Below are positions 340 through 17,962 of a stretch of DNA of 61,050 nucleotides, piece by piece. The position numbers and the translations under genes are program-made. The stretch comes from Candidatus Gastranaerophilales bacterium. Lineage in GTDB: Bacteria; Cyanobacteriota; Vampirovibrionia; Gastranaerophilales; Gastranaerophilaceae. Position 1 is the stretch's first letter, and the number at the start of each line of letters is the position of its first letter. The notes below the pieces were generated by a model. It was not told where the DNA came from. It searched no databases and worked only from the letters and a program-made list of their open reading frames with translations. The DNA lies in assembly GCA_944322755.1 (NCBI GenBank), contig CALUPY010000014.1, forward strand, positions 1 through 61,050, read 5' to 3'.

Positions 340-371
340 TCTTAATGATGGTCAAAATTAATTAGGAAGAT

Positions 372-3323
372 ATGACAAGTAATTTAGAAAAGTTATATAA
401 CGATTTAAACCTTGTTGGTAAGAAAGAGTTTATTCGATTAGATAAAATAGAACAATATCCTCTTAACAATATTTCTTTGCGTTATAAAAATGCTATTGAT
501 GAAATGAAACCTGAATCCATTTTTTGTATGGAAAATGAACCTTTGATCTTATTTTTCAATTTAGAAAATGAACATAATAGTCAAGATAAAATAAAAAATA
601 TTCAAAAACAAACTTGGAATTTCGATAAAGCACCCATTATTGTTGTATCAACGTCAAATGAAATTGTTTTTTACAATGCTTTTGATTTTGATACTAACAA
701 TCATAAGTTATCTATTTTAACAAAATCAGTAAAAGATTTTCAAAATTTTTCATATGAAAATCTTTATACGGGCAAAATTTTTTCTAAATATAGAAATAAG
801 TTTACAGATAAAAATAGAGTTAACACTTTATTATTTCAACACATAATTAGTTATAGACAAGCCTTAATAAAAAAAGGAATGCATCCATCTTTTGCTACAA
901 AATTGCTATCCAGAATTATTTTCCTTAAATATTTAAAAGATAGAAAGATATCTGTAAATAAGGATAATTCTAATATGATAGAGAATTCTTTTGAAAATAA
1001 AGATTCATTATATGAATTATTTCGTTACTTAAAAAAAGAGTTTAATGGTGATTTATTTGATATAGAAAAAAATGAAAACACTTTATTATCAGATGAATAT
1101 ATGGATATTATTAAAGGTTTCTTTTATGATAGCGATATTAATGGACAATTAAGATTATTTATTCCATTTGATTTTTCTATAATTCCAATAGAACTGGTAA
1201 GTAGTATTTATGAGAATTTTTTGAATTATAAACAATATGAGAATAAAGCATATTATACACCGACATTTTTGGTTGATTATATAATTAATACAACAGTATC
1301 TCCTTTTTTAAATGATAAAAATAAAAATAACAGTAACTGTAAAATTTTGGACCCTGCTTGTGGTTCAGGGATATTCCTAATTGAATCTTTAAGAAAAATT
1401 ATCTATAAAGAAGAAAATATAACTCAAAATAAGATTAGTCCTGAAAGGTTAAAAGAGTTAGTTGAAAACAATATTTTTGGAATAGACAAAGATGAAGATG
1501 CAATAAATATAGCAATATTTTCTTTATACATAACTTTATTAGATTACCAAGATCCACGCAGTATTTTAAATTTTAAGTTTCCGCATTTAAAAGATAATAA
1601 TTTTTTTGTAAATGATTTTTTTGATGAATCAAATTGTTTTAATAATAAAATAAAGAATCTTGATTTCATTTTATCAAATCCGCCTTATGGTGATATAAAA
1701 GAAGGCTTACATAACAACTGGTACAAAAAAAATAATATTCCAGTAAATGATAACCAAATTGCAGAAAGTTTTATGGCAAGGGTAAAAGATTTTTGTAATA
1801 AACAAACAGTTGTTTCAATGGTTATTACTAGTAAAATTTTTTATAATATGAAGGCTTGTAATTATAGAAAATATTTTTTAAGTAATTTTACAATAAAACA
1901 AATACTTGAGTTATCTCCTGTAAGAAAGCAAATATTTAATGCAGCTATTCCTCCAGTATCTATTCTTACATATTCGTATTGTCCAGGGAATAAGAAAACA
2001 GATAATAATATTATATATACAAGTATAAAGCCTAATTTATACTTTAAATATTTTAAAATTTTATTAATTGAAAAAAATGATATTAAGTATATTCGACAAA
2101 GTTTATTTTGTAAATATGATTGGCTTTGGAAAGTAATTTTGTATGGGAGCATTTTAGACTTTTATTTTATAAAAAGACTTATTGAAGAGTATGAGTTTTT
2201 AAATAAACAAAAAAATCAGCTTATTTGTGGTGAAGGAATTCAATTAAGTGGCAGTAGTAAAATGTCTGCTGAATTATTAAATGGGAAGCTTTATTTAGAT
2301 ACAAAGAAGAAACAATTAAAACCATTTTGTATTGAGTATAATGAATTAAAACCTTTCAATGCTGATAATTTGCATAGAAATAAAGCAAATAAAATGGAAT
2401 TATTTAAGGCTCCTATGGTTTTGATAAAAAAAGGAAACTCTCCTGACTTATCTTGTGTTTCTGCTGTTGCAATTAAAGATATGGTTTATACAGATTCGGT
2501 ATCTTCTATTAAATTCAAGGATTATGATGAAGATAAGGTATTTAATTTATGTGGTTTGTTTAATTCTTCGTTTTTTACCTATTATATTATGAATACTTCA
2601 TCATCAGTAGCAGTAGAAAGAAACCAAATTCATATTTCTGAGTATTTAAAAGTTCCTTATCAATTTGATAAAGAATTGGCTAATTATGTAAAAGAAATGC
2701 ATGAATTATGTTCCTCTTGTAGAGCAAATACTATTTTTGATAGTTTAGAAGATAATCAAAATAAGAAATTATTAAAAGAAAGTTTGATGGTAGCTATAAA
2801 TCATCAAATAAAAAAGATATATAATATTTCAAAAACAGAAGAGGATTTAATAGATTATGCTATAAATATTTCAATTCCTATTTGGCGATTTGGGGATAGT
2901 ACTTCTCAAATTCAAGAACCAATACCTTTTAAAAGGGTCTCAAAAAAACAATTAAAAGAATATGCAAATATATTTATTGAAGAATTTGCAGAGCAATATG
3001 AAAATTTTAGTGTTGATATATATCCTTTCCAATACTGTACCTTAATCAATTTTAAAGCTAGAGCAGAACAAATGGAAAAACCGCCAATAACATTTTATGA
3101 AAATAAAGAAATTGAAAATATTATAAAAATTGTTTCAGATGTTTCAATAAATGATATTACAAACGAAATTTATATAAAGAAAGAAATAAAAGGTTTTAAT
3201 GAAAATTCATTTTTTGTTATAAAAACAAATGAATATAAGAATTGGCATAAAGCCATTGCCAGATTAGATGTTAACGAATTTTCAAATGCTATATGGGAGG
3301 CTGAACTTGAACTCCCTGAATAA
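372..3323 (+). CDS. N-6 adenine DNA methyltransferase (Eco57I/TaqI-like)
   Basis: This 983-residue protein is a class I SAM-dependent DNA methyltransferase. The SAM-binding motif DPACGSG starts at residue 327 and the catalytic NPPY motif is at 436-439, the pattern of adenine-N6 enzymes. About 300 residues precede the catalytic domain and about 450 follow it. The C-terminal half contains stretches such as FFTYYIMNTSSS that resemble TaqI-type target-recognition domains. I see no nuclease motif in the protein itself, but a PD-(D/E)xK protein is encoded directly downstream with overlapping ends, so the two probably form one restriction-modification system. It would methylate host DNA at a site that cannot be predicted here. 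The base composition is much more AT-rich than the core genes further right, which fits horizontal transfer. Confidence 0.85.
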   Translation: MTSNLEKLYNDLNLVGKKEFIRLDKIEQYPLNNISLRYKNAIDEMKPESIFCMENEPLILFFNLENEHNSQDKIKNIQKQTWNFDKAPIIVVSTSNEIVFYNAFDFDTNNHKLSILTKSVKDFQNFSYENLYTGKIFSKYRNKFTDKNRVNTLLFQHIISYRQALIKKGMHPSFATKLLSRIIFLKYLKDRKISVNKDNSNMIENSFENKDSLYELFRYLKKEFNGDLFDIEKNENTLLSDEYMDIIKGFFYDSDINGQLRLFIPFDFSIIPIELVSSIYENFLNYKQYENKAYYTPTFLVDYIINTTVSPFLNDKNKNNSNCKILDPACGSGIFLIESLRKIIYKEENITQNKISPERLKELVENNIFGIDKDEDAINIAIFSLYITLLDYQDPRSILNFKFPHLKDNNFFVNDFFDESNCFNNKIKNLDFILSNPPYGDIKEGLHNNWYKKNNIPVNDNQIAESFMARVKDFCNKQTVVSMVITSKIFYNMKACNYRKYFLSNFTIKQILELSPVRKQIFNAAIPPVSILTYSYCPGNKKTDNNIIYTSIKPNLYFKYFKILLIEKNDIKYIRQSLFCKYDWLWKVILYGSILDFYFIKRLIEEYEFLNKQKNQLICGEGIQLSGSSKMSAELLNGKLYLDTKKKQLKPFCIEYNELKPFNADNLHRNKANKMELFKAPMVLIKKGNSPDLSCVSAVAIKDMVYTDSVSSIKFKDYDEDKVFNLCGLFNSSFFTYYIMNTSSSVAVERNQIHISEYLKVPYQFDKELANYVKEMHELCSSCRANTIFDSLEDNQNKKLLKESLMVAINHQIKKIYNISKTEEDLIDYAINISIPIWRFGDSTSQIQEPIPFKRVSKKQLKEYANIFIEEFAEQYENFSVDIYPFQYCTLINFKARAEQMEKPPITFYENKEIENIIKIVSDVSINDITNEIYIKKEIKGFNENSFFVIKTNEYKNWHKAIARLDVNEFSNAIWEAELELPE

Positions 3324-3987
3324 GTTGTCTGCTAAAAAGTTTGTAAGGAATAAAACTTATAAACTTCAATTTAATAAAATACTCACCGCTTGTGTAAAAG
3401 CTCATTTTAAATTGGTTGAAAGTGAAAAAAAATTAGAAGGATTAGAGGAAGAAATATTAAGAAACAAATTACTTAAATACATAAAAAATAATCAAGGTAC
3501 TTATGGAATTGCAAAATATGTTTTTGATGCAGAATCTGCAGAAATTGATGAAACTACAGATAAAACGGTTGGTTATTGTGATATAAAAATCACAATACCT
3601 TGTTCTTCAAATTTTTCTACAAAAGAACAAAACAAATTCATTATTGAATGTAAAAGATTAGATGGTTTTGCAACAAAAAACAAAGCATATATAGAAAATG
3701 GGATGAATCGTTTTATATCTGAAAAATATGTATGTAGGTTGGATGTTTGTGGGATGATTGGTTTTATAGAAAAATCGAACAAAGTTTATAAAACTGACAA
3801 AATAGCTGAAATTGTAAATGATATTAATGATAAACTTATTAATGTATATAAAAAGAATGAAACAGAAAAATTACAAACGAGTACAAATATAGACGAATAT
3901 AATAATAGCTATACTTCCACACATATTAGAGAGAAGTGTCAATTACCATTGCATATTTCACATTTATTTTTAGATATGAATACTTAA
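3307..3987 (+). CDS. PD-(D/E)xK nuclease-like protein, probable restriction subunit
   Basis: The best start is TTG at 3307, six bases after GGGAGG (3295-3300). An ATG at 3268 in the same frame lacks a good ribosome site. The 226-residue product overlaps the methyltransferase by 17 bp and is probably translationally coupled to it. Residues 87-118 contain VGYCDIKITIP and then FIIECKRL. D92, E114 and K116 match the D-(D/E)xK active site of the restriction-endonuclease fold. No other domain is visible. Partnering with the upstream methyltransferase makes a role as the cutting subunit likely. A modification-dependent or accessory nuclease role is possible. The catalytic-site call rests on the motif and context, not on close family recognition. 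Confidence 0.7.
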   Translation: MNSLNKLSAKKFVRNKTYKLQFNKILTACVKAHFKLVESEKKLEGLEEEILRNKLLKYIKNNQGTYGIAKYVFDAESAEIDETTDKTVGYCDIKITIPCSSNFSTKEQNKFIIECKRLDGFATKNKAYIENGMNRFISEKYVCRLDVCGMIGFIEKSNKVYKTDKIAEIVNDINDKLINVYKKNETEKLQTSTNIDEYNNSYTSTHIREKCQLPLHISHLFLDMNT

Positions 3988-4010
3988 TTAAATAATGGGA
4001 TATATTATAG

Positions 4011-5107
4011 TTATTCATCTTCATAGTTATTATGCCAACCAGCATGTCCTTCACAAAATTCACACCCTGCTTCAAAACTATATTCTAAATCTCCTCCAAG
4101 CTGACCTTCACTACACCATTCACAATATTCAATATTATCGTCATATTCTAAACAATTAAGACATATATACTTATCATTATGTTCAACTACGCTATGATAG
4201 CCACCACAATAACTACAATTTATTGGGAATTTTTCAAAATAATTATCTTTTGTTGGTGGATTAGAATCCATTATATTTAACAAATCATCTTTTGTTAAAA
4301 TATGTTTGCAATTTTCACAAAGTATTGAATCTTGTTCAATATTATTTTCATTAACTATTATTTCATTATCACATTCAGGACAATTTATTTTTAATAATGT
4401 CATTTTTTTATCACAAACCCAACAATGTCCTTTATATATATATTTTCTGATACATTTTCTTCGAGCATTGATAAGTATGAACAGGTTGGACAATTTATAA
4501 ATATACTGCCTTCTTTTTGCTTTCTATTTATTTCATCTTTTAATTTCTCAAATTTTGCTTGTAAATATTTTTGACGATTTGCTTTTTGCATTTCTTTATC
4601 TAAATTGTCAATTTTATTTGCATACTTAGAAAAAATAAAATTCCAAGTTGCAAAAAGCTGTTTTAAATGTATCCACACTCTGCATTGTTCAATTACAATC
4701 TTTTCAATATCATCTGTGGTAGAGTCCGAGTTAGTAATAGCATGATAAAAATGAACCATTTTATTCCTGTGTGTTGCTAAATTTGCAAAACATTTTTGTG
4801 CATCTGGATGGATATTTTCATTTGTAATATTTTTTATTGCAGGAATTAAGTCTACAAAATTTATGGATTTAAAATCCCCTTTAAGAAATTCATCCATTTT
4901 AGGATTTTTAGCTACAACTAAAGCCCAATGCTCTTTTAATAGCCTTGCTTTTAAAAATAGTTCAACGGCGGAACAAAAATTTATCACAGAGTATTTGGGC
5001 TCATGTTCAAATTGTTCTATCCCTCGTTCAAGAAAATCAAAGGCATTTTCAAGTAAACATTGTAAAACAATCTCATTGTTTATAGTTTTTTGTTTTGTTT
5101 CAACCAT
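4011..5107 (-). pseudogene. HEPN domain-multi-zinc-ribbon protein, split by a TA-repeat frameshift
   Basis: Two leftward reading frames overlap: 5107-4400 (235 codons) and 4493-4011. Removing one TA unit from the TATATATATA run at 4433-4442 joins them into a protein of 364 residues. The first part is helical and contains the HEPN ribonuclease motif as RNKMVH (R114, H119). The second part is a chain of CxxC pairs, eight in all, forming about four zinc ribbons. The first ribbon needs CPTC from one frame and CWVC from the other, so the two frames were clearly one gene. HEPN proteins are commonly RNases in toxin and phage-defence systems, and this gene converges on a restriction-modification pair. 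It may be dead, phase-variable through repeat slippage, or affected by a sequencing error. Confidence 0.75.
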
Positions 5108-5147
5108 TTTAAATATCCCTATTTATTTAATACTAACATAAAAATAG

Positions 5148-5183
5148 GGGACTAAAAAGGGACTAATTTTACAAATAGTCCCT
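5148..5183. repeat. GGGACTAA direct repeats plus an inverted copy
   Basis: GGGACTAA occurs at 5148-5155 and 5159-5166, eleven bases (one helical turn) apart. An inverted copy, TAGTCCC, lies at 5176-5182. The second and third copies form an 8-bp hairpin (AGGGACTA/TAGTCCCT). Repeats in this phase next to a tRNA attachment site resemble integrase or excisionase arm-binding sites. The alternative is an operator for the HEPN gene, which starts at 5107 and reads leftward. The functional reading is inferred. Confidence 0.5.
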
Positions 5184-5281
5184 AAAAATTATTAAAAACT
5201 GCCAAAAGTAAGAACTTTCAAGATTAAACAATACTGGAGATTACGGGATAAAATTTTAAACTACAAAAAGCAGAAATATTT

Positions 5282-5302
5282 GTTCGAATCCCACCTCCTC
5301 CT
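5282..5302 (+). other. tRNA 3'-end fragment, probable integration site (attR)
   Basis: GTTCGAATCCCACCTCCTCC has the T-loop signature TTCGAAT followed by a plausible T-stem and acceptor 3' strand. Nothing upstream can supply the rest of a tRNA: the sequence before it does not pair. Four bases downstream begins a strong terminator. This is the layout expected when an element recombines with the 3' part of a tRNA gene and leaves a short duplicate. The acceptor strand CTCCTCC would pair with GGAGGAG, which is reminiscent of tRNA-Ser, but the identity is not certain. Confidence 0.65.
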
Positions 5303-5305
5303 AAT

Positions 5306-5340
5306 AAAAACGGGCTGAGTTTTCTCAGACCCGTTTTTAT
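5306..5340 (+). terminator. Intrinsic terminator after the tRNA fragment
   Basis: The arms AAAAACGGGCTGAG and CTCAGaCCCGTTTTT flank a short T loop and are followed by more T. The hairpin is strong on the + strand and probably served the original tRNA gene. It also works on the other strand for the decayed methylase gene that ends at 5337. Confidence 0.8.
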
Positions 5341-6164
5341 TTTGTGTAGTGAGGATGAGAAATCACATTTAGGTGGTATATTTTCTCGTCCACTTTGAGA
5401 AAAACAGCCAGTTTGAGATTTTTGCTATTCAAACAATCGGATATTTCGCTTACCCATTTTATAAAATTATCAATAGCTTCTTGATTTTCCGTGGAATTCA
5501 TTTTGATTTCATCATTTACTTGCCATAATAATTCTATTTTTTGATTTTCTTTTTGGCTGTCTTTTAACTCTCTTTTAAGTGTTGATTTTATGCAAGTTTT
5601 AAAGGTTTCATAATCCATACCTGCTGTTAAAGGGGCTTGAAACCTTTTCGAAACCAGTGCACACGCTGTAAATATCATACGATGATACAAATTCTTAATA
5701 CCAAATTCACTATGTAAACAGTTATTAATACGTGCTGTTAAAGTGTAAATACGTTCTTTATCAATACATTCTTCTGTGAACAATTTAAAATAATCTTCTT
5801 TATCTTGAAGTTCATTGGTAACATCAATAGGAATATTATTTTTAAACCCTAAAGTTTTATAACCATTGTGAAGCAAGCCGATGACATGAGTATACCCGGC
5901 ATCCATAACAATTTGACAATTCTGTTTTATTTCATTAATCCATTTTTTCTTACCAATATCCTCGTTACTGTTTTTGTTTCAAGAATAATAGCAATAGCAC
6001 CCTTGTCTTTAGGCAAATACCACCCGTCCGGTTTCTTATATACCCAATTGATTAAAAGTTGTTATTTGTCCAACACCGCATTGTACATTTTTTATCTTTG
6101 TAAAACCTAATATTTTACAGGCTGTTTCTCTAACTTCATCTTCTGTTAAATATTCAACCAGCAT
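5337..6164 (-). pseudogene. Type I restriction-modification methylase (HsdM-like), N-terminal remnant
   Basis: Leftward fragments in different frames read as the N-terminal half of an N-6 methylase of type I systems. The first piece starts at ATG 6164 (MLVEYLTEDEVRE), overlapping the end of the neighbouring ATPase, and meets a stop. A second frame then gives KPDGWYLPKDKGAIAIILET. The third piece (5906-5337) contains CIDKERIYTLTARINNCLH and TENQEAIDNFIKWVSEISD, typical of the region before the SAM domain. The SAM-binding domain is missing. The frame instead ends with about 25 unrelated residues (LAVFLKVDEKIYHLNVISHP). At least two frameshifts and a 3' deletion make this a broken gene. Confidence 0.7.
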
Positions 6165-7472
6165 CTACCATCCTTTAATATTTCATCAAACTTACTTGCC
6201 ATATACAACGGAATATTATAAAGACCATTGTTTATTTCAAAATCCGCAAGTAAAGTTCTTATACTTATCTCGGGTTCAAATTTTTCTCGATAAACCTTAA
6301 GACTTTTGGCTTGTAAGTTTGTATTTGCTTTCACTTCAACAGGAATTACATAACCGTCAGTTTGAATAATGAAATCAAGTTTTGCATTACCGGATTTACT
6401 TATCCAGTATACAACTTCCATATCTTCAAAAACTTTTAGTTGTTGTAAAACATATTGCTCTGCCAGTGCATCATTGAATTCTGTAAAAATTTTATCTCCT
6501 TCAATTAAAGTTCTTGCCGGAAGTTTACTCAATGCACATAGCAAACCGACATCCAGAATAAAAAGTTTAAAAGCCTTTGTATCTTCATAAGCCTTAATTG
6601 GTAAAGCAGGTTTTGTTATTCGATTAATTTTATAAACAAGTCCACAATTTATAAGCCAAGATAGTGCTTCTTCAAATTCATCTGCTCTTGCTCCCGATTT
6701 CATTTTTTTTATAAACAAACTTTTTGTTTTCTTGAGTAAGCTGGTTTGGAATAGATTCCCAAAGTAAATCAATTTTTAATTTACCTGTAGAAGATATGTG
6801 TTTTGAAAAATCCCTTGTATACGCTTCTAAAATATTTTCCTGAACCTTTCGAACTTTTTGAAAATCGTTTGTTTCAAGAAATGTACTGACTACTTCCGGC
6901 ATACCGCCTATGTAATAATATTTTTTTAGCCATTCAATATATTTTTCTTTAAAAACTTTTATATTTGGTGATTTGGGATTATTTAGTAATTCTATAAAAT
7001 TACTCTCTCCTATTGCATCAAGAAATTCCATAAATGATAAAGGATACAAATCAAGAAAATCTACTTTCCCAACTGGAAAAGAACTATTTTCATGAAGTGC
7101 AACACCTAATAAACTTCCGGCTGCAACTATATTATATTCCGGAGCATTTTCGTAAAAATATTTAAGGGACGTTAGTGCTTTCGGACATTCTTGAATTTCA
7201 TCAAGTATTATTAGGGTATTTGTGGTATTAATTTTAGAATGAGTTAACTCTAAACCTTCAATAATTCTTTTTGTATTGAAGTCTATCGAAAATAAATCAC
7301 ACATGAGCTTATCTAACTCAAAATTTATATAAATAACCTTTTTGTATTCTGTTTTTCCAAACTCTTTCATTAGCCAGGTTTTCCCGACTTGGCGTGCTCC
7401 TCTGATTATCAAAGGTTTTCAATTAGAATCATTCTTCCATTCTATAAGTTTGTTTATTGCATATCGTTTCAT
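6146..7472 (-). pseudogene. AAA ATPase with DUF4143 domain, broken by a stop and a frameshift
   Basis: The original start is ATG 7472 (MKRYAINKLIEWKND). After 17 codons an in-frame TGA interrupts the stretch before KPLIIRGARQVGKTW, the Walker A region. The ATPase part runs on through Walker B (LIILDEIQE) and AGSLLGVALHE. It then loses frame in a run of eight A at about 6703-6710. Reading seven A restores the C-terminal DUF4143 part (ARADEFEEALSWL, then a nuclease-like CGNAKLDF/PVEVKA segment) down to 6146. Proteins of this family are abundant in archaea and anaerobic bacteria and their role is poorly known. Two independent lesions indicate an inactive gene rather than one sequencing error. 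Confidence 0.8.
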
Positions 7473-7712
7473 ATAATTTTTCTCAAATTATATCTTATCA
7501 AAACTTAATACTAAAACAAACAACACATTTATACGACATTTTTACAATGGACTTTTTGTATCATTATCACATTTATTCAAATGACTTTTATGACAATTAC
7601 TGCATTATTTCGAGCCATATTTTATAAAAAATTAAGTCAAATAAAATAAAATTTTTCCAAAATTTATAAGCTATGCAACAAAAAATGAGTTAATCCCGAC
7701 TCAGTAAAGATC
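7473..7712. other. AT-rich intergenic stretch
   Basis: No gene, repeat or clear hairpin is visible in this 240-bp gap between the helicase gene and the decayed ATPase gene, both of which read leftward. Confidence 0.6.
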
Positions 7713-10700
7713 TTAAATTTTAACAGTTATGCTATCTTGCGCTCGTTGAACTTGTTCGGGAATATTGCCTAAAAAATAATTTTCAATATAATTCCAGATA
7801 GTTGCGCTATCAAAATTGTTCTGGTACAAGAATGTGAGCATAGCAACAGATATTTTGTGTCTTTGTGCTACTTTTTCCAACAATTTATTATTGTAATATT
7901 GCGGTTTTCTTATGACTTCTTCCATTGTTTTAGTTTGGTTGACATAAATATAAATTTGACTGTTTAGACCTCCGCTTGCTTTAAATTTCAGGTAGTTTAT
8001 TGCTTCCAAGTACCCCAGTGCTGTTATTATTTCTTTAATATCTTTCTCCCCTTTGTTCTTAACTATATAAAGAATGCCATCTTTTTCATTAGTATGTATA
8101 AATTTTTTCATAGAACATATCCAATTTATAAAATTTTCAATAGGTCGATTGAAAGTGTATGATTCTAGGCCATCTTGAGTTATTCGTGTTTTCATTATTT
8201 CCGCGTTCATTGTTCTATTGTAATTTCTGACATAGTTCTTTATCGTAGCAATCAGTATATTTGCAATACTAGTAGCTCTAAATGATGATATAGCAGTTCT
8301 TTTGCTTATATAATTTGCAATATTTTTGAATTTGTCCTTTTCATTTTTGTCAAATTCAACTTTTAAATAAGAACCTGTATCTGCCGAATTTCTTAAGATG
8401 AAATCAATTGCGTTTTGTATGTGAGCACAGTTTTCATTTTCTGTAAATTCAAGTTGAATACAGGTTGCGGGAATCATTTTGTTCAGGTTAAATTTATCCA
8501 ATTCTTTATCTGCCGAGTATAGCAAAAATTTAAATTTAGGAAATGAAAGATTTTTGCTAAAATCTTTTTCCCATATCTTTTGCAAATTTACGGTATATAT
8601 ATTTTCTGCATTAGGACATTCTCTAAAACAAGAAAGTCCATATCTTTTTATTAACCCATCAATAAAATCTCCGGAAATTTCAAAAAATCCCTGAGCAAAC
8701 AATGTTGAAGGCCTCATCGCAAAAGGAGAAAACCCCATTTTTGATGTATAGTCTTTTTGGATTAGCAAAAGGGCTGTTTTAACCTTTGCAATTAATTCTT
8801 CTTGTGAAGATTCACGTGGACCTTCGAAAATATATGTGAAATTTTCTGCATCTACAAGCATTTCGTTTCGTTTTTTTGATAAGCGGGAGTGTATTAAGTT
8901 TTCTGAATTTAATTTGATATTAAACAATTCATTAACTTTTTGTATAACTTTAATCAATTGATACTTTTTAACTGTAGATAATCCATGCAGTCTGTTAATA
9001 TGTTGAAAATCATTACGCATGTGTGAATAAATAGCTTCTCCTTTTATATTTGGATCTCTCGCTGCCCTGCCAATTTCTTGAACATAGTCACACACATTAC
9101 CAGTTGGGGCAAAGTGACAAACTATTGATATGTCTTTAATATCAATGCCCATTCCAAACGCCTTAGTCGCAAGCATAACTCGTTTTTCTCCGGTTTTAAA
9201 TAATTCAGCACTTTCTTTTTTATCCTCACTGTTCATAGGACCATAATATTTGGCTATATAATTAGATTTTTCTAAAGTTTTACAATAATTGTAAAAAGAC
9301 TCTATTAGCGGAATATTGGGAAAATAAATCAAAGTCTTTTTATTCATAATTATTGCTCGGTCAACAGTTTTAAGAAGATCTTCAAATTTTTCTAATTGAT
9401 ACTGTCCTCGTTGTCTTCTTGTTTCTATTTCCGAGATTTTAATATCTATATCATCACGTTTAACATATCCTAAGTATGTTATTGTTTTTCTCATATTTAA
9501 ACTATCTAACGTCTCTGAATACATATCTTCAACACCGTGATATATAGCTGTTGCCGTAAATGTAGCGATTATAAACGGATGTGAGTTTAAAGACTGCTTT
9601 TTCCTTAATTTCTTTATATAATCACCTAAATACCAGTAATCAGGTCTAAATTGTTTGCCCCAGGTTGTTACTATATGAGCTTCATCAATTACAATCAAAC
9701 CTATCTGTCTATCTCCTATAATTTGGGATATATCACTTCTTGCCAGTAGAGCTTCCGGTGAAAGATACAATATGTGACACTTTCCGTCTTTTATATCTTG
9801 CATAATCTCTTCTTTCTCTATTTGAGAAATATCGGAGTTAATTGTTTTTGCATGTTTATATGATAATTTTTCTAAATTTGATACTTGATCATTCATAAGA
9901 CCTATTAATGGAGAAATGACCAGTGTTACTAAATTGTATTTTTCAGCAAGATATATTGCAGGAATAAGAAACATCGCAGATTTGCCAGCTCCTGTCGGTG
10001 CTGTTACAAAGACATCCGAATAATCAAACTCTGCCTTGTTTACTACAGATTCCACTTGAAAAGCTATATCATTTATAATATCTTCTTGTGAAATTTCTTT
10101 GACAGTTTTTGTTCCGTTTTGTATATTGTCAATATCATACACTTTTAAAGATCGAAAAGAATCATGTCCCCAATATTGTTTTAAAATATTTTTAAATTCT
10201 GGATTATATTCTAATTTTTGTTTGATTTTTGTAATTTTTAGTATTTTTAAGTTCTTATTATATTTTTGCAATAAAGACAGTTTTTCGATGAGTGTTTCTT
10301 TATTACCTGTATAACTATCTATATTTGTATAGACAAAATTTTGATTTTGATTAAATAAAATATCTAACAAATTCAGATAATCATCAGGTTCTTGAAGATA
10401 CAATATTTTATTTTTTGAATATTCCTGATTTTCGTCTATTATTTCTAGTGTATTTTTATTATCAGTATCAAATATGTTTATTGTTTTAATTGCAGAATTA
10501 TATATCTCTGATTCATCATTGTATCTAACCCAGTAGGAATTGTTTATTTTCTTTAAATTTGAATAAATCTTTGTATATTTTTCACCATCATAAACTTGAA
10601 TGTCTGAAACAGTGTCATCTGTTTCGTGATCAAAGAAATCGGCAAGCTGCATTTTTGTTTCCAAAGCCAAATCAACATTAAGAGGGTAGAAATTATTAAA

Positions 10701-10961
10701 TATGTTGTTGTTTACTATATAAATATGATCAAACTCTGAAATTATAAAATTATATAAAAACAAAAATTCTTCATAATAAATTATTCTACGCTTAGAATCG
10801 TATAAATCCAACCAACTTTTTGTGTTACTTTTGTTAAACAAATCTTGTAAATTTATTTTCGGTAAATGTTGATCCTCAATCCCTTTTAAAACTATTATTG
10901 TATTTTCTTTCAAGAGATCAGATATTACAATCTGTACATTATCTCTAATTGTTTTTATCAT
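7713..10961 (-). CDS. RecQ-like DEAH-box DNA helicase with long N- and C-terminal extensions
   Basis: The protein has 1082 residues. The superfamily 2 core occupies about residues 300-660: Walker A APTGAGKS with K327, DEAH at 426-429, the TATA motif (FTATA), a second RecA lobe with GMGIDIKDI, and motif VI QEIGRAARD from residue 628. This order and spacing fit RecQ helicases, which unwind DNA 3' to 5'. The usual RecQ zinc-binding and HRDC domains are not evident. About 300 residues precede the core and 420 follow it, none of which I recognise. Its start overlaps the end of the sigma-factor gene by 17 bp, so the two are translationally coupled. It lies in a defence-type island. A role in repair, transcription or defence is open. 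Confidence 0.8.
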   Translation of the reverse strand: MIKTIRDNVQIVISDLLKENTIIVLKGIEDQHLPKINLQDLFNKSNTKSWLDLYDSKRRIIYYEEFLFLYNFIISEFDHIYIVNNNIFNNFYPLNVDLALETKMQLADFFDHETDDTVSDIQVYDGEKYTKIYSNLKKINNSYWVRYNDESEIYNSAIKTINIFDTDNKNTLEIIDENQEYSKNKILYLQEPDDYLNLLDILFNQNQNFVYTNIDSYTGNKETLIEKLSLLQKYNKNLKILKITKIKQKLEYNPEFKNILKQYWGHDSFRSLKVYDIDNIQNGTKTVKEISQEDIINDIAFQVESVVNKAEFDYSDVFVTAPTGAGKSAMFLIPAIYLAEKYNLVTLVISPLIGLMNDQVSNLEKLSYKHAKTINSDISQIEKEEIMQDIKDGKCHILYLSPEALLARSDISQIIGDRQIGLIVIDEAHIVTTWGKQFRPDYWYLGDYIKKLRKKQSLNSHPFIIATFTATAIYHGVEDMYSETLDSLNMRKTITYLGYVKRDDIDIKISEIETRRQRGQYQLEKFEDLLKTVDRAIIMNKKTLIYFPNIPLIESFYNYCKTLEKSNYIAKYYGPMNSEDKKESAELFKTGEKRVMLATKAFGMGIDIKDISIVCHFAPTGNVCDYVQEIGRAARDPNIKGEAIYSHMRNDFQHINRLHGLSTVKKYQLIKVIQKVNELFNIKLNSENLIHSRLSKKRNEMLVDAENFTYIFEGPRESSQEELIAKVKTALLLIQKDYTSKMGFSPFAMRPSTLFAQGFFEISGDFIDGLIKRYGLSCFRECPNAENIYTVNLQKIWEKDFSKNLSFPKFKFLLYSADKELDKFNLNKMIPATCIQLEFTENENCAHIQNAIDFILRNSADTGSYLKVEFDKNEKDKFKNIANYISKRTAISSFRATSIANILIATIKNYVRNYNRTMNAEIMKTRITQDGLESYTFNRPIENFINWICSMKKFIHTNEKDGILYIVKNKGEKDIKEIITALGYLEAINYLKFKASGGLNSQIYIYVNQTKTMEEVIRKPQYYNNKLLEKVAQRHKISVAMLTFLYQNNFDSATIWNYIENYFLGNIPEQVQRAQDSITVKI

Positions 10962-12276
10962 TCATTTCTCCTTTTATTCGTTTTATTTTGTTTATTATTT
11001 CGTTATGAGAAAAAGAATTATCCTCATATGAATTTTGTTCTAAACATTCAAGAACCTTACTGTATAAAATTTCGTAGTCACTTTCGGTTTTATTTAAATT
11101 GAGAATTCTACGAATAATCGTATAAATATCAGGAACATAAGAAATATCATTCATTTTAAAATTGTATTGCGGATTATTTTTTTTGATTTCAGGCAACTTA
11201 TCATCAAAGAAATCTATCATGTCAGGGTTAAAATTTTTTCTTAATTTACGTAACGCTTTTTCTTCTATCTGTCGTATTCTTTCTCTCGTAACCCCGAACA
11301 GCACCCCGATCCCATCGAGTGTATATCTTTTTTGTTTATCCAATCCGTAACGCTTTATTATAACTTCTCTTTCCCGAGGAGATAATATAGCCAAATTTTT
11401 ATTGACATGATACACAATTTCTTTTTCCGAAAAATAATCTTCCGGCCGTTTTATTTGACTACAAAAGCAGTTTACACTGTTTGAAATCGTATCTATAATA
11501 TTTAGATCTTGATTTTCTCCTATATATGCATCTAAATATTCAGGATTTAAATAATAGTTTTTCAAAATCTTCAGTTTTTTATATTTTTCTTGTTCTTTAT
11601 CAGAAATTTTGTCAGTATCATCATCTTCTAATTTAGCGAGCATTTTGCTTGCTTTTTTTATATCTTCCCACTTGTGAACCGGGAGCCTGATTAAAAAACC
11701 TGTGTTAATAATTTCTCTTTGTATTGCCTGGCTTATCCAGAAAGTGGCATAAGTCAATAAGTTATAGCCTTTAGAACAATCAAATTTTTGACATCCTTTT
11801 ATAAACCCAATCGTTGCTATCTGAAATAAGTCTTCATCATCTAATTTATGATTATAAAAAAAGCTCTTTTTATTGGCTTGTTTATGAATATACTTCTCAT
11901 TTTTCTGTATTAACACCTGTAATACATTTTTATTTTTTGTCTTTTGGTATAATTCGACTAAATATTCGTTTGATTCTATAAAAAAAGTGTTTTTAGTTTT
12001 ATTCAAAGATTTTTTAACGGATCTACTGGTGCTATCTTTCACTGTAACAATAATACTTTCGTGTGGTTCTTCCTGTGTCTTTTTACTTTCTGGAGCTGCT
12101 TCATCTGAGTCTTTATCATCAACAAGTTCCACACCGATAGAAAATAATAATTCGCTTACCTGATACTGTTCTTTTCGTTCCAAAAAAGAAAAGATCTTTT
12201 CAAAATCAGAGTATAAAAGTTCTTTTCTTACATTTAAATACGGCTTAATATTCTTTATAATTAAATCTTTATTCAT
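10945..12276 (-). CDS. RpoD-like sigma-70 factor with C-terminal extension
   Basis: This 443-residue protein looks like a primary-type sigma factor. Residues 1-53 resemble region 1.1, ending in IGVELVDD. Region 2 covers about 104-200, with DLFQIATIGFIKGCQKFD and YATFWISQAIQREI. Region 4 covers 296-347, with the helix-turn-helix TLDGIGVLFGVTRERIRQIEEKALRKLR. Regions 2.3-2.4 are diverged from the usual TYATWWIRQAI. About 95 extra residues follow region 4, where housekeeping sigma factors end. It is the first gene of an operon with the RecQ-like helicase, overlapping it by 17 bp. A second RpoD-type sigma factor on an accessory island implies altered promoter choice for island or phage genes, but no target promoter is identified. 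TATAAT hexamers lie 25-60 bp upstream. Confidence 0.88.
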   Translation of the reverse strand: MNKDLIIKNIKPYLNVRKELLYSDFEKIFSFLERKEQYQVSELLFSIGVELVDDKDSDEAAPESKKTQEEPHESIIVTVKDSTSRSVKKSLNKTKNTFFIESNEYLVELYQKTKNKNVLQVLIQKNEKYIHKQANKKSFFYNHKLDDEDLFQIATIGFIKGCQKFDCSKGYNLLTYATFWISQAIQREIINTGFLIRLPVHKWEDIKKASKMLAKLEDDDTDKISDKEQEKYKKLKILKNYYLNPEYLDAYIGENQDLNIIDTISNSVNCFCSQIKRPEDYFSEKEIVYHVNKNLAILSPREREVIIKRYGLDKQKRYTLDGIGVLFGVTRERIRQIEEKALRKLRKNFNPDMIDFFDDKLPEIKKNNPQYNFKMNDISYVPDIYTIIRRILNLNKTESDYEILYSKVLECLEQNSYEDNSFSHNEIINKIKRIKGEMNDKNN

Positions 12277-12456
12277 TTCTAATTTTCAAATATTACTAAT
12301 TATACTACTAATGAGAATTATAAAGTATTGTAGAAATCAATATTTTACGCAATTGAAACAATTAGAAATAATATCCGGCCAACTCACCTTTCAGGTTTTA
12401 GTACAAACAACCCCACCCTCAAAAAAACGCATAAAAACTTCTTGCCCAAAGAAAAA

Positions 12457-12999
12457 TCACGAAAGCGCAGGAGTTTGCTGATTAAAAAATTTTTCCATTA
12501 AAGAATCATATTTGCCCGTACTTTTTAAAATAAAATCACACATCTGCCGAACTGCACCGCGTCCGCCGTTTTTTGTACAAATAAATTCAGCAACTCCCAA
12601 AACTTCTTCCACAGCATCTGCAGGTGCACAAGAGAGTCCTACTGTTTTTAAAACGCAAATATCAGGTAAATCGTCACCCATATATGCAATTTCTTCCGGT
12701 TTTAAATTAAATTCTTCCATAAAAGCCTGCAGCGCAGCTATCTTATTTTTCTGTCCTTCATAGAGTTTCGTCATGCCGAGATTTTCAAATCTGTGTCTTA
12801 CGGTACCGTTTTGTCTGGCAGTTATGATTGCGGTAACGAAGCCGGCTCTGTTTAACATTACAATCCCCTGCCCGTCTTTTGCGTTAAAGGTTTTGTATTC
12901 GACACCGTTTTCGTCAAAAGTAAGCGAGCCGTCAGTCATTACTCCGTCTACATCAAAAACAACAGCTTTTATTTTAGACGCTTTGTATTTCAAATCCAT
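12457..12999 (-). CDS. kdsC: 3-deoxy-D-manno-octulosonate 8-phosphate phosphatase
   Basis: KdsC removes phosphate from Kdo-8-phosphate in the cytoplasm, giving Kdo for the inner core of LPS. The 180-residue protein is a small HAD phosphatase without a cap domain, the normal KdsC length. The first catalytic motif is DVDGVMTDG (nucleophile D16, acid/base D18), followed by IITAR and the metal-binding GDDLPD. It follows the arabinose-5-phosphate isomerase gene with a TAATG overlap, so both Kdo steps are made from one message. The pair implies an LPS outer membrane. It marks the start of core sequence to the right of the island. Confidence 0.92.
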   Translation of the reverse strand: MDLKYKASKIKAVVFDVDGVMTDGSLTFDENGVEYKTFNAKDGQGIVMLNRAGFVTAIITARQNGTVRHRFENLGMTKLYEGQKNKIAALQAFMEEFNLKPEEIAYMGDDLPDICVLKTVGLSCAPADAVEEVLGVAEFICTKNGGRGAVRQMCDFILKSTGKYDSLMEKFFNQQTPALS

Positions 13000-13985
13000 T
13001 ACGCAACACCCGCTTTCAACAAATCATGAATATGAATCATACCCTCCGGATGATTTTCTTCATCACAAACAACAAGCGATGTAATAGAATGTTTTTCCAT
13101 TATATTCAGGGCTTTAGCCGCAAGGTCATTTTTCTTAATTGTTTTAGGGTTTCTTGTCATAACATCTTTTGCGAGCAGACCTGATGTATTTTCATATTTC
13201 AAAAGTATACGTCTAATATCACCGTCTGTCAGAACTCCTGTCATTTCACCGGAATTGTTAATAATAATAGCGGTACCGAGTTTTTTCTCAGATATGATAG
13301 CAATTGTTTTTTGGAAAGTCGTATTTTCCTCTACTATTGGCAGCGCATCTCCGACTATCATCATGTCAGAAACTTTATACAGTACGCCTTTTCCAAGTGC
13401 ACCTGAAGGGTGGAACATAAGAAAGTCTTCTTCAGTAAAACCGCGTTTTTTCAAAAGACAAATTGCGACAGCATCACCCATTGCCAGAGTGGCTGTAGTG
13501 CTCGCAGTCGGAGCTTTCCCGAGCGGACAGGCTTCTTTTTCCACCGAAATATCAAGAACAACCTCGCTTTTTTGGGCAAGTGTTGAATTTAATTTGCCTG
13601 TCATTGCAATCATAGGCACACCGAACCTTTCAATCAACGGCAAAAGGTTCAACAGTTCTGCAGTTTCACCGCTGTTAGATATTGCAACAACAACATCATC
13701 ACGTGTTATCAATCCTGAATCCCCATGGGTGCTTTCAGCCGGATGCAGAAAATAAGACGGAGTTCCGGTAGATGAAAGTGTAGCGGCAATTTTTCTGCCA
13801 ATATGTCCGGATTTACCCATACCGGTAATAATAACTCTGCCTCTGCAGTTATATAAAATATCTATAGCTCTGTCAAAATCTGCGCCTATTCTGTCTTTTA
13901 ACTTCATAATAGATTGTGCTTCTATATCGAGCACTTCTTTTGCAAGTTCTTCAATTGAGCTTATTTTGTTTAAAGTTTGCAGCAT
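12999..13985 (-). CDS. kdsD: D-arabinose-5-phosphate isomerase (KdsD/KpsF family)
   Basis: The enzyme converts ribulose-5-phosphate to arabinose-5-phosphate, the first step to Kdo. The 328-residue protein has a SIS sugar-isomerase domain (about 40-175) with GMGKSGHIGRK, the ESTHGDSG segment and SNSGET. Two CBS domains follow (about 205-328), containing TDGDIRR and the terminal MIHIHDLLKAG. This is the standard KdsD/KpsF/GutQ layout and length. The gene overlaps kdsC by one base (TAATG) and is transcribed first. I choose the ATG at 13985 because it gives the full family N-terminus. KpsF and GutQ are close paralogues, but the partner gene makes the Kdo role most likely. Confidence 0.92.
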   Translation of the reverse strand: MLQTLNKISSIEELAKEVLDIEAQSIMKLKDRIGADFDRAIDILYNCRGRVIITGMGKSGHIGRKIAATLSSTGTPSYFLHPAESTHGDSGLITRDDVVVAISNSGETAELLNLLPLIERFGVPMIAMTGKLNSTLAQKSEVVLDISVEKEACPLGKAPTASTTATLAMGDAVAICLLKKRGFTEEDFLMFHPSGALGKGVLYKVSDMMIVGDALPIVEENTTFQKTIAIISEKKLGTAIIINNSGEMTGVLTDGDIRRILLKYENTSGLLAKDVMTRNPKTIKKNDLAAKALNIMEKHSITSLVVCDEENHPEGMIHIHDLLKAGVA

Positions 13986-14042
13986 ATAATTACCCTCTTT
14001 TTTCTTAATTATACGACAACATATAATGTATTTACAATAAAA

Positions 14043-14063
14043 AGCCTCTGAAATTCAGAGGCG
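14043..14063 (-). terminator. Hairpin with downstream T tract (leftward)
   Basis: GCCTCTG and CAGAGGC flank AAATT. On the minus strand the hairpin is followed by TTTTTATT. It lies about 150 bp beyond another leftward terminator (14212-14242), so it may be a backup or may end a short unrecognised transcript between them. Confidence 0.6.
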
Positions 14064-14211
14064 AAATCGGTTAGTAGTTTGGTAGTTAGGTTTTATAGAG
14101 TTAGTTGTTTAAAAAATAGGAACGTATTTTTGTTTAGGAATTTCTGATTGTATAAAGCTGCTCAATACAAAAAATTTACTATCCCATTCCTGTTTTTTAC
14201 AAATTTTAACA

Positions 14212-14242
14212 ATAAAAAACGCACCCGATAAAGTGCGTCTTT
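14212..14242 (-). terminator. Intrinsic terminator of the 193-residue protein gene
   Basis: ACGCAC and GTGCGT pair across an 8-base loop. On the minus strand the hairpin is followed by TTTTTTATT. It begins only a few bases after the stop codon of the gene at 14249-14830. Confidence 0.75.
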
Positions 14243-14248
14243 TATTGT

Positions 14249-14830
14249 TTAGTAATATCTTTGATAATTTATTGCCCTGTCAGGCATTTCATCAATCATC
14301 TTCACCACTTTATTATACATATTTTCCTGAAATTCTTTAATTTCTTCCGGCGTAAAGACTTCGTTTTTATCTTCGGTTTTGGAAAAGACCATGACCGAAC
14401 TCGTGGGCTTTTTTAACAATTCCATCATAACCGGATCATTATTGTTCAATTCACGAATTTGTCTCTTATAAAGGAACGGATTTTCTGCTTCTATATCCAA
14501 TATTTTCTTCTTAATCTGTTCAGCCGGAATCAAATATTTGAGTTCTACTCTCATGCCTTCTTTTGGAACCAAAAACAAATAGTCCAGAAAATACAATTTC
14601 CATCTGACGCCCCTCAGGGTTATTTCAAATTCATCAGAAAGCTTTTGAAGCCGCGGTTCCAGATTAGCAGCAATATTCCATAATTTATATCCGTTTTGTT
14701 TGCATTTCATAAAAGAATCTCTGTCAATGACGACTTTTGCTTTAAAAGACGGAACATTCTGCTGTTTTTTTAATGTAGTATTATTTGTTCTGTACAGGTT
14801 TGGTGACGGGGAGATGTTTCTGACTTGCAT
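14249..14830 (-). CDS. Lineage-specific hypothetical protein with N-terminal SFKA motif
   Basis: I do not recognise a function. The 193-residue product starts MQVRNISPSPNLY and has PSFKAKV at residues 27-33. The rest is charged and helical, with no membrane segment or catalytic motif. The opening MQV, a Ser/Pro/Asn-rich leader and an SFKA/SFKG motif recur in the Ski2-like helicase of this window (25053-27428), whose main domain is unrelated, so the leader may be a shared sorting or lineage feature. It stands alone between kdsD and speE, with a terminator after it. Confidence 0.7.
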   Translation of the reverse strand: MQVRNISPSPNLYRTNNTTLKKQQNVPSFKAKVVIDRDSFMKCKQNGYKLWNIAANLEPRLQKLSDEFEITLRGVRWKLYFLDYLFLVPKEGMRVELKYLIPAEQIKKKILDIEAENPFLYKRQIRELNNNDPVMMELLKKPTSSVMVFSKTEDKNEVFTPEEIKEFQENMYNKVVKMIDEMPDRAINYQRYY

Positions 14831-14974
14831 AATAAAAATTTTTCCTGTGTATTAACCATTCTTTGACTGTTATTTTTATATGTATCATAAAAATATATCA
14901 AATGGTATAAGTTCATTTGATATACTTTTATAATTTGTTACAATTTTAGTTTTAAACTTTAATTTCCTGCCGGA

Positions 14975-15814
14975 TTATTTCACGAGTTCTTTAACAAAAT
15001 TCGGCAGAGCAAAACGTGCAAGATGATAGTCTTTGTTGTAAATCTTACACTGGTTCGCAATTTTTTCCGCTCTTTTTTCATCAATATAACTCAGAGGTTT
15101 CACTGTCTCAGAACAGAAACACCAGCTCCAGTATCCGCCGGGATATGAAGGAATAGGCCCTGTGAATGTATCAACAATCGGAAAAACTTTTCTTAGAAGC
15201 GGGTACATTTTTTTCATTTCTGCCTGATTTATAAACGGAGATTCAGACTGCGCTGACATAATCCCGCCTTCTTTAAGGGCTTCTTTTACATTCGTATAAA
15301 ATTCCTCAGTGAACAAACCTTCACCGGGTCCCATAGGATCGGTCGAGTCTATTAATATAATATCGTACTGTGCTTTTTTATCTTTTATAAACTCTATTGC
15401 ATCTTCAATTCTGACTTCCACTTTAGGGTTATCCAGTTCACATCCTATAGTAGGCAGATATTTTTTGCAGGCCTCAACGACCATTCCGTCAATTTCGCAT
15501 AATACAACTTTTTTTACAGTATCATGTTTTAAAACTTCTCTGATGGTACCGCCGTCTCCGCCGCCTATCACAAGCACTGATTCAGGATTTTTGTGATTCA
15601 TCATAGGAATATGAGAAATCATTTCGTGGTAATAAAACTCATCTCTCTCTGTTGTCATCATCAAACCGTCGAGAGTTAAAACCCGGCCCATTGATTCTGT
15701 ATCAAAAATATCAACTTTTTGAAAATCAGACTGACCGCTGAACAAAGTCTCCTTAACTGTCATACAGCAGCCGAATCCGTCTTTGCTCAATTCACAGTAT
15801 CTCATATCCAACAT
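14975..15814 (-). CDS. speE: Spermidine synthase (polyamine aminopropyltransferase)
   Basis: SpeE transfers the aminopropyl group of decarboxylated SAM to putrescine in the cytoplasm. The 279-residue protein has the N-terminal beta domain (SMGRVLTLDGLMMTTERDEF) and the Rossmann methyltransferase-like domain. The motif GGGDGG is at 84-89, the ligand acidic residue is in LCEIDG, and the catalytic region is IDSTDPMGPGEGLF. The length is normal. The ATG at 15814 is preferred, as the typical N-terminus follows within a few residues. No other polyamine genes lie next to it. The paralogous thermospermine or other aminopropyl transferases cannot be excluded from sequence alone. Confidence 0.92.
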   Translation of the reverse strand: MLDMRYCELSKDGFGCCMTVKETLFSGQSDFQKVDIFDTESMGRVLTLDGLMMTTERDEFYYHEMISHIPMMNHKNPESVLVIGGGDGGTIREVLKHDTVKKVVLCEIDGMVVEACKKYLPTIGCELDNPKVEVRIEDAIEFIKDKKAQYDIILIDSTDPMGPGEGLFTEEFYTNVKEALKEGGIMSAQSESPFINQAEMKKMYPLLRKVFPIVDTFTGPIPSYPGGYWSWCFCSETVKPLSYIDEKRAEKIANQCKIYNKDYHLARFALPNFVKELVK

Positions 15815-15871
15815 AATTTTTTCCTCTTCTTAACTTTTAACGAACGTTTATTATATCACACAAAAATTTGG

Positions 15872-15900
15872 CAGGGGCAATTAATTTTGCCCCTGTTTTT
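15872..15900 (-). terminator. Intrinsic terminator downstream of the OPA transporter
   Basis: CAGGGGCAA and TTGCCCCTG form a GC-rich stem around a short loop, directly after the stop codon of the leftward transporter gene. T runs lie on both sides, so it could work on either strand. Confidence 0.75.
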
Positions 15901-17360
15901 TATGCGTTTTGTTTCTTCTTAAAGCACATAGGCAGACAAATTGCCGCACATATAAATGCCGACACACCCCAGAATGCCAGTGCACCGTTCCAGCCGAATT
16001 TGTCCACAACAAAACCGGTGCCAAGCCCGGAAAGCATTGCTCCAATGTATCCGAAGGTTCCGGTAAAGCCGGTTACCGCAGAGGCAACCTTTTTTGAACT
16101 GGACTCAATTGCACATACACCGCCTATAAGCATTTGCGGGCCGTAGGTAAAAAATCCGGAAAAGCCTATCAATAAAATATCGATTACCCCAGAGCCGTTA
16201 ATTTTAAAGACTTCTTCAAGCTGCTTTCCTGTAAGCGAATAGAAAGCACTGTCTATAAAGTTTGTACCCGTACCGTTAATATAAAGTCCGAGCATACAAA
16301 TAATTACACCTATCAAAAATATAACATTAATCGGTGCTCTCTGACCTTTAAAGATTTTATCAGAAATCAATCCCGCAGATATCGTACCAAAAAATCCAAA
16401 CAAAGGCAGACACGCAAGTTTCATAGAAGCAAGCTCGAGTGAATTGTCTTTTGCTTCTACGAGATATTTTATAATCCAGTCCTCTGTGCCGAATCTGATT
16501 ACATAAACAAAGACATAAGCAAGAGCAAGAGCCCAGACAGCTTTGTTCGTCAGTACATTTTTTACAAGAATCTGAATATATGACATACCGTCATCTTCTG
16601 ATTCAATTTTTGCAGACTCTTTTGCTTTTTCAGACTCTCTGTATTCTTCAACATCAGGCAGTCCGATTGTCTGGGGTTTATCTCTGAGTCTGTTGAACAG
16701 CCATAAAGCAACAAGAATTGCCATAATACCCGGGATATAAAAAGCTGCCTGCCATCCGAATCTCGCTATCAAAAATCCGGAAATAATAACAGCAAGAAAA
16801 GTTCCTGTCTGGTGTGATGTTGACCACATTGCCCATTTTGTCGCACGTTCAGAGTTAGAAAACCAATAAGTTAAACTCTTTGCAACAGGAGGAAATCCCA
16901 TTGACTGAAACCATCCGTTGCAACCCCAGAAAAAGGCAAATACCCACAGCAGAATCGTAGCAGAGGGCAAGCCGAAGAAAGTAAATTTACCCGGAGTAAA
17001 AACAAAAAAGCTCAACGCAAAACATATATTAGCAAGACCGGCAAGAATCAAACCCGTGGGTAAAAATTTTCTCACATCAGACCGGTCCGCAATCATTCCG
17101 TTTACAAATTTTCCTATTGCATAAGTAAGATACAAAGAACTGCCGATGACGCCCAGTTCAAGATTCGAATATCCGAGCTCCGTGCTCATTGACGGAAGTG
17201 CTGCAGCAATATTCTTTTTGCACAAATAAAACATTGCATACCCGATAAAACAAGAATAGAACATTCTCCATCTGAAATGTGCATATTTCTTGTCAATCTC
17301 GGATTTGTCCTGTATAGGCTCAATTGGTGCAGGTTCTTTAAAAAATCCTAATATACTCAT
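15900..17360 (-). CDS. MFS organophosphate:phosphate antiporter (GlpT/UhpT-like)
   Basis: The 486-residue protein is an inner-membrane transporter of the OPA branch of the major facilitator superfamily. It would exchange a sugar phosphate or glycerol-3-phosphate for inorganic phosphate. About twelve hydrophobic segments are visible. The family signature region FYLCKKNIAAALPSM after the first helix and the ADRSDVRKFLPTG loop match the OPA group. A charged central loop (REDSEKAKESAKIESEDD-like) separates the two six-helix halves. I cannot choose between GlpT- and UhpT-type substrates. The gene stands alone and ends at a terminator. Confidence 0.87.
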   Translation of the reverse strand: MSILGFFKEPAPIEPIQDKSEIDKKYAHFRWRMFYSCFIGYAMFYLCKKNIAAALPSMSTELGYSNLELGVIGSSLYLTYAIGKFVNGMIADRSDVRKFLPTGLILAGLANICFALSFFVFTPGKFTFFGLPSATILLWVFAFFWGCNGWFQSMGFPPVAKSLTYWFSNSERATKWAMWSTSHQTGTFLAVIISGFLIARFGWQAAFYIPGIMAILVALWLFNRLRDKPQTIGLPDVEEYRESEKAKESAKIESEDDGMSYIQILVKNVLTNKAVWALALAYVFVYVIRFGTEDWIIKYLVEAKDNSLELASMKLACLPLFGFFGTISAGLISDKIFKGQRAPINVIFLIGVIICMLGLYINGTGTNFIDSAFYSLTGKQLEEVFKINGSGVIDILLIGFSGFFTYGPQMLIGGVCAIESSSKKVASAVTGFTGTFGYIGAMLSGLGTGFVVDKFGWNGALAFWGVSAFICAAICLPMCFKKKQNA

Positions 17361-17722
17361 ATCTTCTCCACTATACTTTAACAGCTGCTTTAATTATCAC
17401 AAAAGCAATCTGCAAATACAATAGAATGTAATGTTTTATAATTATATTTTTCTCGCACATATTTAACTAATGCTCAAATATCAAATCTGACATAATATTA
17501 ATTAAGAAACGGATAATATTGCGTTTGTATATAAAAATCACGATTTAATACACAAATCGTGATTTTTGCTACAAATTTAGCAATGACAACCTTTTTCACC
17601 GCGTTTAAAGAGGGTTTTGAGTATATACAGTTTTAAAAATTGTAAAAATTACACAATTAATATGAACATGACTTTAGATTTTTGTGTTTATATATATGTA
17701 AGTATGGAAAGTGAAGGTGTTC
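17361..17722. other. Intergenic stretch with a 14-bp-stem hairpin
   Basis: This 360-bp gap holds the promoter side of the OPA transporter gene and the upstream side of a small rightward gene. Its only strong feature is a hairpin at 17533-17567, listed separately. I see no convincing gene with a start codon here. Confidence 0.5.
17533..17567. terminator. Bidirectional hairpin terminator
   Basis: AAAAATCACGATTT pairs perfectly with AAATCGTGATTTTT over a 7-base loop. The A and T ends give a U tract in either direction. It lies away from any recognised gene end, so it may insulate the neighbouring units or end a small unrecognised transcript. Confidence 0.6.
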
Positions 17723-17866
17723 ATGTTTAGTCCCGAATTTATGAAGTTCTTAATTGGTCGAGACATTAATGATTACGTAGTTGTAGAAAAAGAAGAAAAC
17801 AACAAAGAAAATAAAATCTTTCGCTATTCTAAATTAGCAACCATCCCCATTGAAATTAAAGAATAG
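17723..17866 (+). CDS. Small 47-residue protein of unknown function
   Basis: The frame runs from ATG 17723 to TAG 17864 and encodes 47 residues beginning MFSPEFMKFLIGRDINDYVV. The sequence GAAGGTG just before the ATG is a plausible ribosome site. A strong intrinsic terminator follows 20 bp after the stop, so this looks like a complete one-gene unit. The product is highly charged in the middle (EKEENNKENK), with no membrane segment or cysteine. I recognise no family. Its isolated position between a transporter gene and a DUF1858 gene gives no functional hint. Confidence 0.6.
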   Translation: MFSPEFMKFLIGRDINDYVVVEKEENNKENKIFRYSKLATIPIEIKE

Positions 17867-17886
17867 TTAAATAAAAAAATAAGTAC

Positions 17887-17922: not shown

Positions 17923-17962
17923 GTTACATTAGGTTTGTTTTCAAAACCGGCCGGCTTATATT

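Follow-up and report, generated by a model that had tools for sequence, protein, structure and literature searches.

The usual partners of described defence helicases are nucleases, methyltransferases or ATPases. DpdF, from the Dpd DNA-modification defence system, has a RecQ-like core, and the helicase PsyrT of PsyrTA is partnered by a phosphoribosyltransferase. PADLOC also includes PDLC01089 ("C3a193, poss. alt. Cas3"), a single model labelled without a stated function and with no mention of a sigma partner. On the sigma factor side, mzaA has been named as a sigma factor of the mzaABCDE system (PMC9523054). The window, a 61,050-nucleotide stretch of DNA from a Candidatus Gastranaerophilales bacterium, carries a sigma factor gene and a RecQ-like helicase gene that overlap on the minus strand. 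The features of this region are:

372 to 3323, plus strand: type IIG restriction enzyme-methyltransferase, island neighbour (PADLOC E 6.6e-151; Eco57I Pfam domain)
4400 to 5107, minus strand: DUF3644/HEC-08 candidate defence gene, island neighbour (PADLOC E 2.6e-55)
6146 to 7412, minus strand: AAA_14/DUF4143 ATPase (PADLOC PDC-S01), divided between two overlapping frames that each match half of one model
7713 to 10961, minus strand: RecQ-like SF2 helicase, 1082 aa (Pfam, full-length PDLC01089 match, family alignment); unrecognised N-terminal alpha/beta region ~1-300, SF2 core ~314-640, unrecognised C-terminal region ~640-1082
10945 to 10961, minus strand: last 17 bp of the sigma gene, shared with the start of the helicase gene
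10966 to 10975, minus strand: Shine-Dalgarno-like AAAGGAG of the helicase, within the sigma gene (sequence read directly)
10945 to 12276, minus strand: sigma-70 family factor, 443 aa (Pfam, residue analysis; RpoD_Cterm 157.5 bits and MzaA 155 bits, both far below cut-off); conserved N-terminal domain ~1-58, linker, region 2 ~121-189, region 4 ~295-347, lineage-specific tail 349-443

The open reading frames at 10945-12276 and 7713-10961 confirm the operon-like arrangement and the 17-bp overlap first reported for this pair. Translational coupling of the two genes is plausible, though not the sole route by which the helicase could be translated, since a separate AAAGGAG within the sigma gene precedes the helicase ATG at 10961 by about 8 nt.

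Comparison with described helicases and sigma factors

The helicase has clear DEAD and Helicase_C matches in Pfam and an SF2 core with Walker A, DEAH and motif VI. K327, D426-E427-A428-H429 and Q628-E-I-G-R (628-632) are invariant or nearly so in the family alignment of 22 relatives, while the RecQ zinc-binding, RQC and HRDC domains have no Pfam match at E <= 1; the core described in the initial annotation as complete, and as lacking zinc and HRDC domains, is thus upheld. No nuclease domain is recognised by Pfam. The predicted model of the N-terminus is of middling quality (mean pLDDT 64) and has no clear match, with a best VIA Z of 4.4 and no Foldseek match at E <= 0.001; the C-terminus, with a poor predicted model (mean pLDDT 46), has no match to PDB sequences at E <= 1. 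The C-terminal region ends in a conserved W-x2-IExYFLG motif.

RecQ is the best general match of the helicase, over the SF2 core at 195 bits, but the helicase differs from RecQ in the absent domains and the large unrecognised flanks, and falls below the cut-offs of both TIGR01389 (195 against 640.2 bits) and TIGR00614 (179.9 against 219.8 bits). DpdF shares the RecQ-like core and is matched at 136 bits against a cut-off of 550, while the alignment to PsyrT covers the core only, and the window partner is a sigma factor rather than a phosphoribosyltransferase. No Dpd or PsyrTA partner genes were found among the adjacent genes scanned with PADLOC. PDLC01089 is matched over nearly its whole length (helicase residues 55-1067 to model positions 50-982 of 983, E 2.2e-149). 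As for the Cas3 of its label, the helicase has no Pfam match to an HD nuclease domain, and no CRISPR array was found in positions 1-20000 of the window. Identity as a housekeeping RecQ is rejected by the scores, the absent domains and the patchy distribution described below. Searching the host genome (G000) with the window helicase returned nothing beyond the helicase itself and no second RecQ-like match, so that this genome may be without a housekeeping RecQ.

The sigma factor had been annotated with a region 1.1-like segment and regions 2, 3 and 4. Regions 2 and 4 are clear by Pfam (1e-9 and 4e-15), but region 3 has no Pfam match, and the first segment stands as a real conserved domain of about 58 residues, present across two phyla, whose kinship to sigma region 1.1 is suggestive only. 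Region 1.1 of Bacillus subtilis SigA scored 8.4 bits against this domain, a value reached by 1 of 1000 shuffles, and that of E. coli scored 2.3 bits; the domain's PDB matches at E <= 10 include no sigma factor. Region 1.2 (PF00140) was matched by Pfam in neither the window sigma nor nine other partner sigmas, and among the sigmas scanned occurs only in an unrelated one at locus L083. The 95-residue tail is present in the window sigma as annotated, but it is confined to Gastranaerophilales. Neither L012 within that order nor the Bacillota partners have it, which makes it dispensable to the family.

Residues were compared with an E. coli sigma reference entered from general knowledge. Equivalents of the -35 contacts R584, E585 and R588 and of the -10 contacts T429, Y430, W434 and Q437 are present in 14 of 14 partner sigmas, while those of T440, F427, L402 and E407 are variable. 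At the core-contact positions, D403 and Q406 are mostly kept and L402 and E407 are altered. The partner sigma looks functional but altered, with its promoter-contact residues retained. These residues of regions 2 and 4 are common to the window sigma and RpoD/SigA, from which it differs by having no recognised region 1.2, altered core-contact positions, fast evolution and a separate RpoD in its genome. The host genome encodes ten sigma-70 region 2 ORFs, the window sigma and nine others, with a canonical RpoD (L001) among the latter; the window sigma is therefore rejected as the only or housekeeping rpoD. MzaA is the only defence sigma model that it matches; regions 2-4 align, at 155 bits where the cut-off is 800, only the sigma part of the protein is matched, and no other Mza genes (MutL, Z1, DUF, AIPR) were found among the eight genes scanned with PADLOC. 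In the partner sigma on the Lactiplantibacillus plantarum plasmid (L047, 5824-7197), a DpnI_C (Dam-replacing) winged helix is joined to the protein close to the N-terminus (E 2.4e-18). The corresponding domain of DpnI helps that enzyme to read methylated DNA.

No published description of a sigma-helicase pair was found in the open-access literature, where most subscription papers are missing. Given this, the PADLOC match without a function, the core-only matches to DpdF, PsyrT and RecQ, and the MzaA score below cut-off, the pair is best regarded as a variant, not previously described, among helicase-centred accessory systems, in agreement with the earlier statement that no described system has this pairing.

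Distribution and descent of the pair

Whether the two genes are conserved as neighbours, a question raised by the initial annotation, is answered by 16 loci in which they are adjacent: eight in Gastranaerophilales including the window, five in Bacillota genomes, and three plasmid types of Bacilli.

Gastranaerophilales: window, L009, L010, L011, L012, L017, L018, L105
Bacillota, the second phylum: L078, L079, L080, L081, L106
Plasmid, Lactiplantibacillus plantarum: L047, in four near-identical records
Plasmid, Enterococcus faecium: L077
Plasmid, Exiguobacterium aurantiacum: L046, with the sigma gene spanning the start of the circular record

In 14 of the 16 the genes are in tandem with the sigma gene first, and their spacing varies between overlaps reaching 32 bp (taking the longest frames) and a 20-bp gap. 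In L046 and L078 they are divergent, about 50 bp apart. The sigma gene is split over two frames in L105, while both genes are split in L106, where a BrxC frame in the same assembly is also split. Among 383 genomes of the order, 8 have the family-specific helicase C-terminus, as do 4 of 386 in the phylum sample and 9 of 398 in a sample of the phylum of L013 (a Bacillota MAG). Within the host genus, two of four genomes have the pair, at different sites. By these counts the helicase is an accessory, patchily distributed gene. No sigma-paired copy was found in phage records or viral contigs; a phage-borne pair is rejected on this basis. Sigma-less relatives of the helicase do occur in viral contigs.

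A maximum-likelihood tree of 26 helicases groups all 16 sigma-paired ones in a single clade (100/100). Every bootstrap tree recovers this clade, and the nine sigma-less helicases all fall outside it. The pairing thus has a single origin on the helicase tree, and the adjacency, seen at 16 loci, is more than chance. The sigma tree places the seven Gastranaerophilales partners included and those of L079-L081 in one clade (100/99), with main forks that match the helicase branching; it does not place the plasmid and L078 partners. Pairwise distances of the two proteins are correlated (Mantel r 0.878, p 0.0001). At L083, a sigma gene directly follows a frameshifted helicase relative. This locus was rejected as a true pair and left out of the count because its sigma, which has region 1.2, falls among housekeeping sigmas, and its helicase is not in the paired clade.

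The dN/dS ratios, 0.13-0.27 in the sigma gene and 0.07-0.11 in the helicase gene, show purifying selection on both; they are rough values, with several dS above 1. On the comparative evidence the pair is stable, co-inherited and mobile, over long evolutionary distances and in different sites and plasmids. The sigma nevertheless evolves faster than the helicase; between the window and L009, 45% of sigma residues differ against 22% of helicase residues. This rate, and the alteration of L402 and E407 while the DNA contacts are kept, would suit a sigma that mimics the host sigma as a guard or decoy, so that its binding by phage anti-sigma or sigma-appropriation proteins activates the helicase. Whole-gene dN/dS is well below 1 and so gives no gene-level sign of an arms race, and such a decoy is regarded as very improbable.

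Genomic neighbourhood

The proposed defence-type island is borne out in the window by the type IIG and HEC-08 genes, and elsewhere by association: recognisable defence genes lie near 9 of the 16 paired loci and none were recognised at the other 7, a plain count that describes association and is not a statistic. BREX-3 brxF, brxC and pglX are directly downstream of the pair in L079, brxC is near it in L080, and the same BREX-3 frames are present by inspection in L106. Type I restriction is directly upstream in L077, a type I methyltransferase is near the pair in L011, and a type II methyltransferase and restriction enzyme are directly downstream in L017/L087. PbeA and PbeC are near the pair in L081 and a PDC-M26A gene in L078. 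An HNH endonuclease adjoins the pair in L046. No BREX genes were found beside the window pair among the adjacent genes scanned with PADLOC, which limits the BREX-3 association to some lineages.

In the window, the AAA_14/DUF4143 ATPase at 6146-7412 appears frameshifted or decayed and is probably outside the sigma-helicase module. The gene on the other side of the pair encodes a HAD-family hydrolase (Pfam), which together with the next gene reads like an ordinary kdsC/kdsD pair. In comparison with G033 and G092, genomes of the same genus, the segment of the window beginning at 12482 runs in the opposite orientation to the sequence past about 17525, with the sigma-helicase island at the edge of the inversion.

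If the pair served repair or maintenance and simply built up in variable islands and on plasmids, the seven loci without recognised defence neighbours would be accounted for, and RecQ-like cores are common in repair. The patchy distribution, the plasmid carriage and the recurring restriction or BREX neighbours count against this, and a role outside defence is considered quite unlikely; we infer a defence role for the pair.

The upstream sequences bear on a different proposal, in which the sigma would do no more than drive transcription of its own gene and the helicase gene, for instance to keep the helicase expressed while the housekeeping sigma is seized or blocked by a phage, and the two proteins would never touch. 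This is the simplest reading of a sigma gene heading an operon, and at both divergent loci a common intergenic stretch of about 50 bp separates the two genes. A conserved promoter or operator was rejected, with none found upstream of the sigma genes: the best shared motif covers 3 of 13 sites, and shuffles reach the same 82 of 500 times. Autoregulation is therefore not supported, and overlapping tandem genes with strict co-inheritance exceed the needs of a regulator, leaving a plain dedicated regulator with a low probability.

The partner slot and possible modes of action

Relatives of the helicase outside the paired clade show what else the partner may be. In L013 (7806-13200), L014 (7890-13200) and L076 (5414-10721), the helicase relative is followed directly by a gene of about 576 aa; L013 and L014 have no sigma, and the downstream gene of L013 has UvrD-type helicase domains. 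This arrangement is possibly a second two-gene system, and the presence of a UvrD-type helicase gene in the downstream slot of a sister branch without a sigma suggests that the partner is the exchangeable half of the module. Other sigma-less relatives are beside a HamB-like gene (L082) and beside an OLD-type nuclease (L084). Another lies between type III CRISPR RAMP genes and genes reading as BREX-3 (L107, 780-19000). On a viral contig (L108, 5420-12386), a sigma-less relative lies within an apparent phage structural cluster, beside an ADP-ribosylarginine hydrolase-like gene.

The pair resembles sigma/anti-sigma operons in gene order, with the sigma first and an overlapping partner second, but differs from them in that the partner is a 1082-aa helicase with no known anti-sigma domain by Pfam. 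This order, together with the relatives that have another enzyme instead of a sigma, favours an accessory two-gene module, usually one operon, in which sigma and helicase would be a sensor-output pair against foreign DNA, a reading that is put forward tentatively. In the resting cell, the helicase would bind the sigma in the position of an anti-sigma. Its SF2 motor would engage foreign or abnormal DNA, upon which the helicase would release or activate the sigma, and RNA polymerase would then be redirected by the sigma to the promoter of the module itself, perhaps also to defence genes nearby. Counted for this reading are the adjacency in 16 loci, the single origin, the co-divergence, the purifying selection, the kept contacts, the defence neighbours, the UvrD slot and the DpnI_C domain; the missing shared promoter motif and the seven loci without a recognised defence neighbour are counted against it.

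Part of the same evidence would fit a reversed relationship, in which the sigma, alone or in the holoenzyme, brings the helicase to invader promoters. There the motor would block or strip transcription, or else make the DNA accessible to nucleases encoded nearby. The one-to-one pairing over deep time and in several gene orders, the retained promoter-contact residues, the one sigma with an extra DpnI-type DNA-binding domain and the frequent restriction or BREX neighbours are all consistent with such transcription-targeted interference. It has no visible way to spare host promoters, and the helicase has no recognised nuclease domain; interference of this kind is judged unlikely.

Whether the helicase senses DNA as an anti-sigma, as in the favoured sensor-output reading, or the sigma aims the helicase, the locus may represent an undescribed class of two-gene defence system in which the sigma is a working part and RNA polymerase joins the immune response, although this is held as somewhat doubtful. 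If the defence role and a sigma-based mechanism were both true, the pair would be a new class. A helicase with a stable sigma partner across distant lineages would link immunity to the transcription machinery, and would open to direct test the question of whether foreign DNA is sensed by a motor and answered by re-aiming RNA polymerase.
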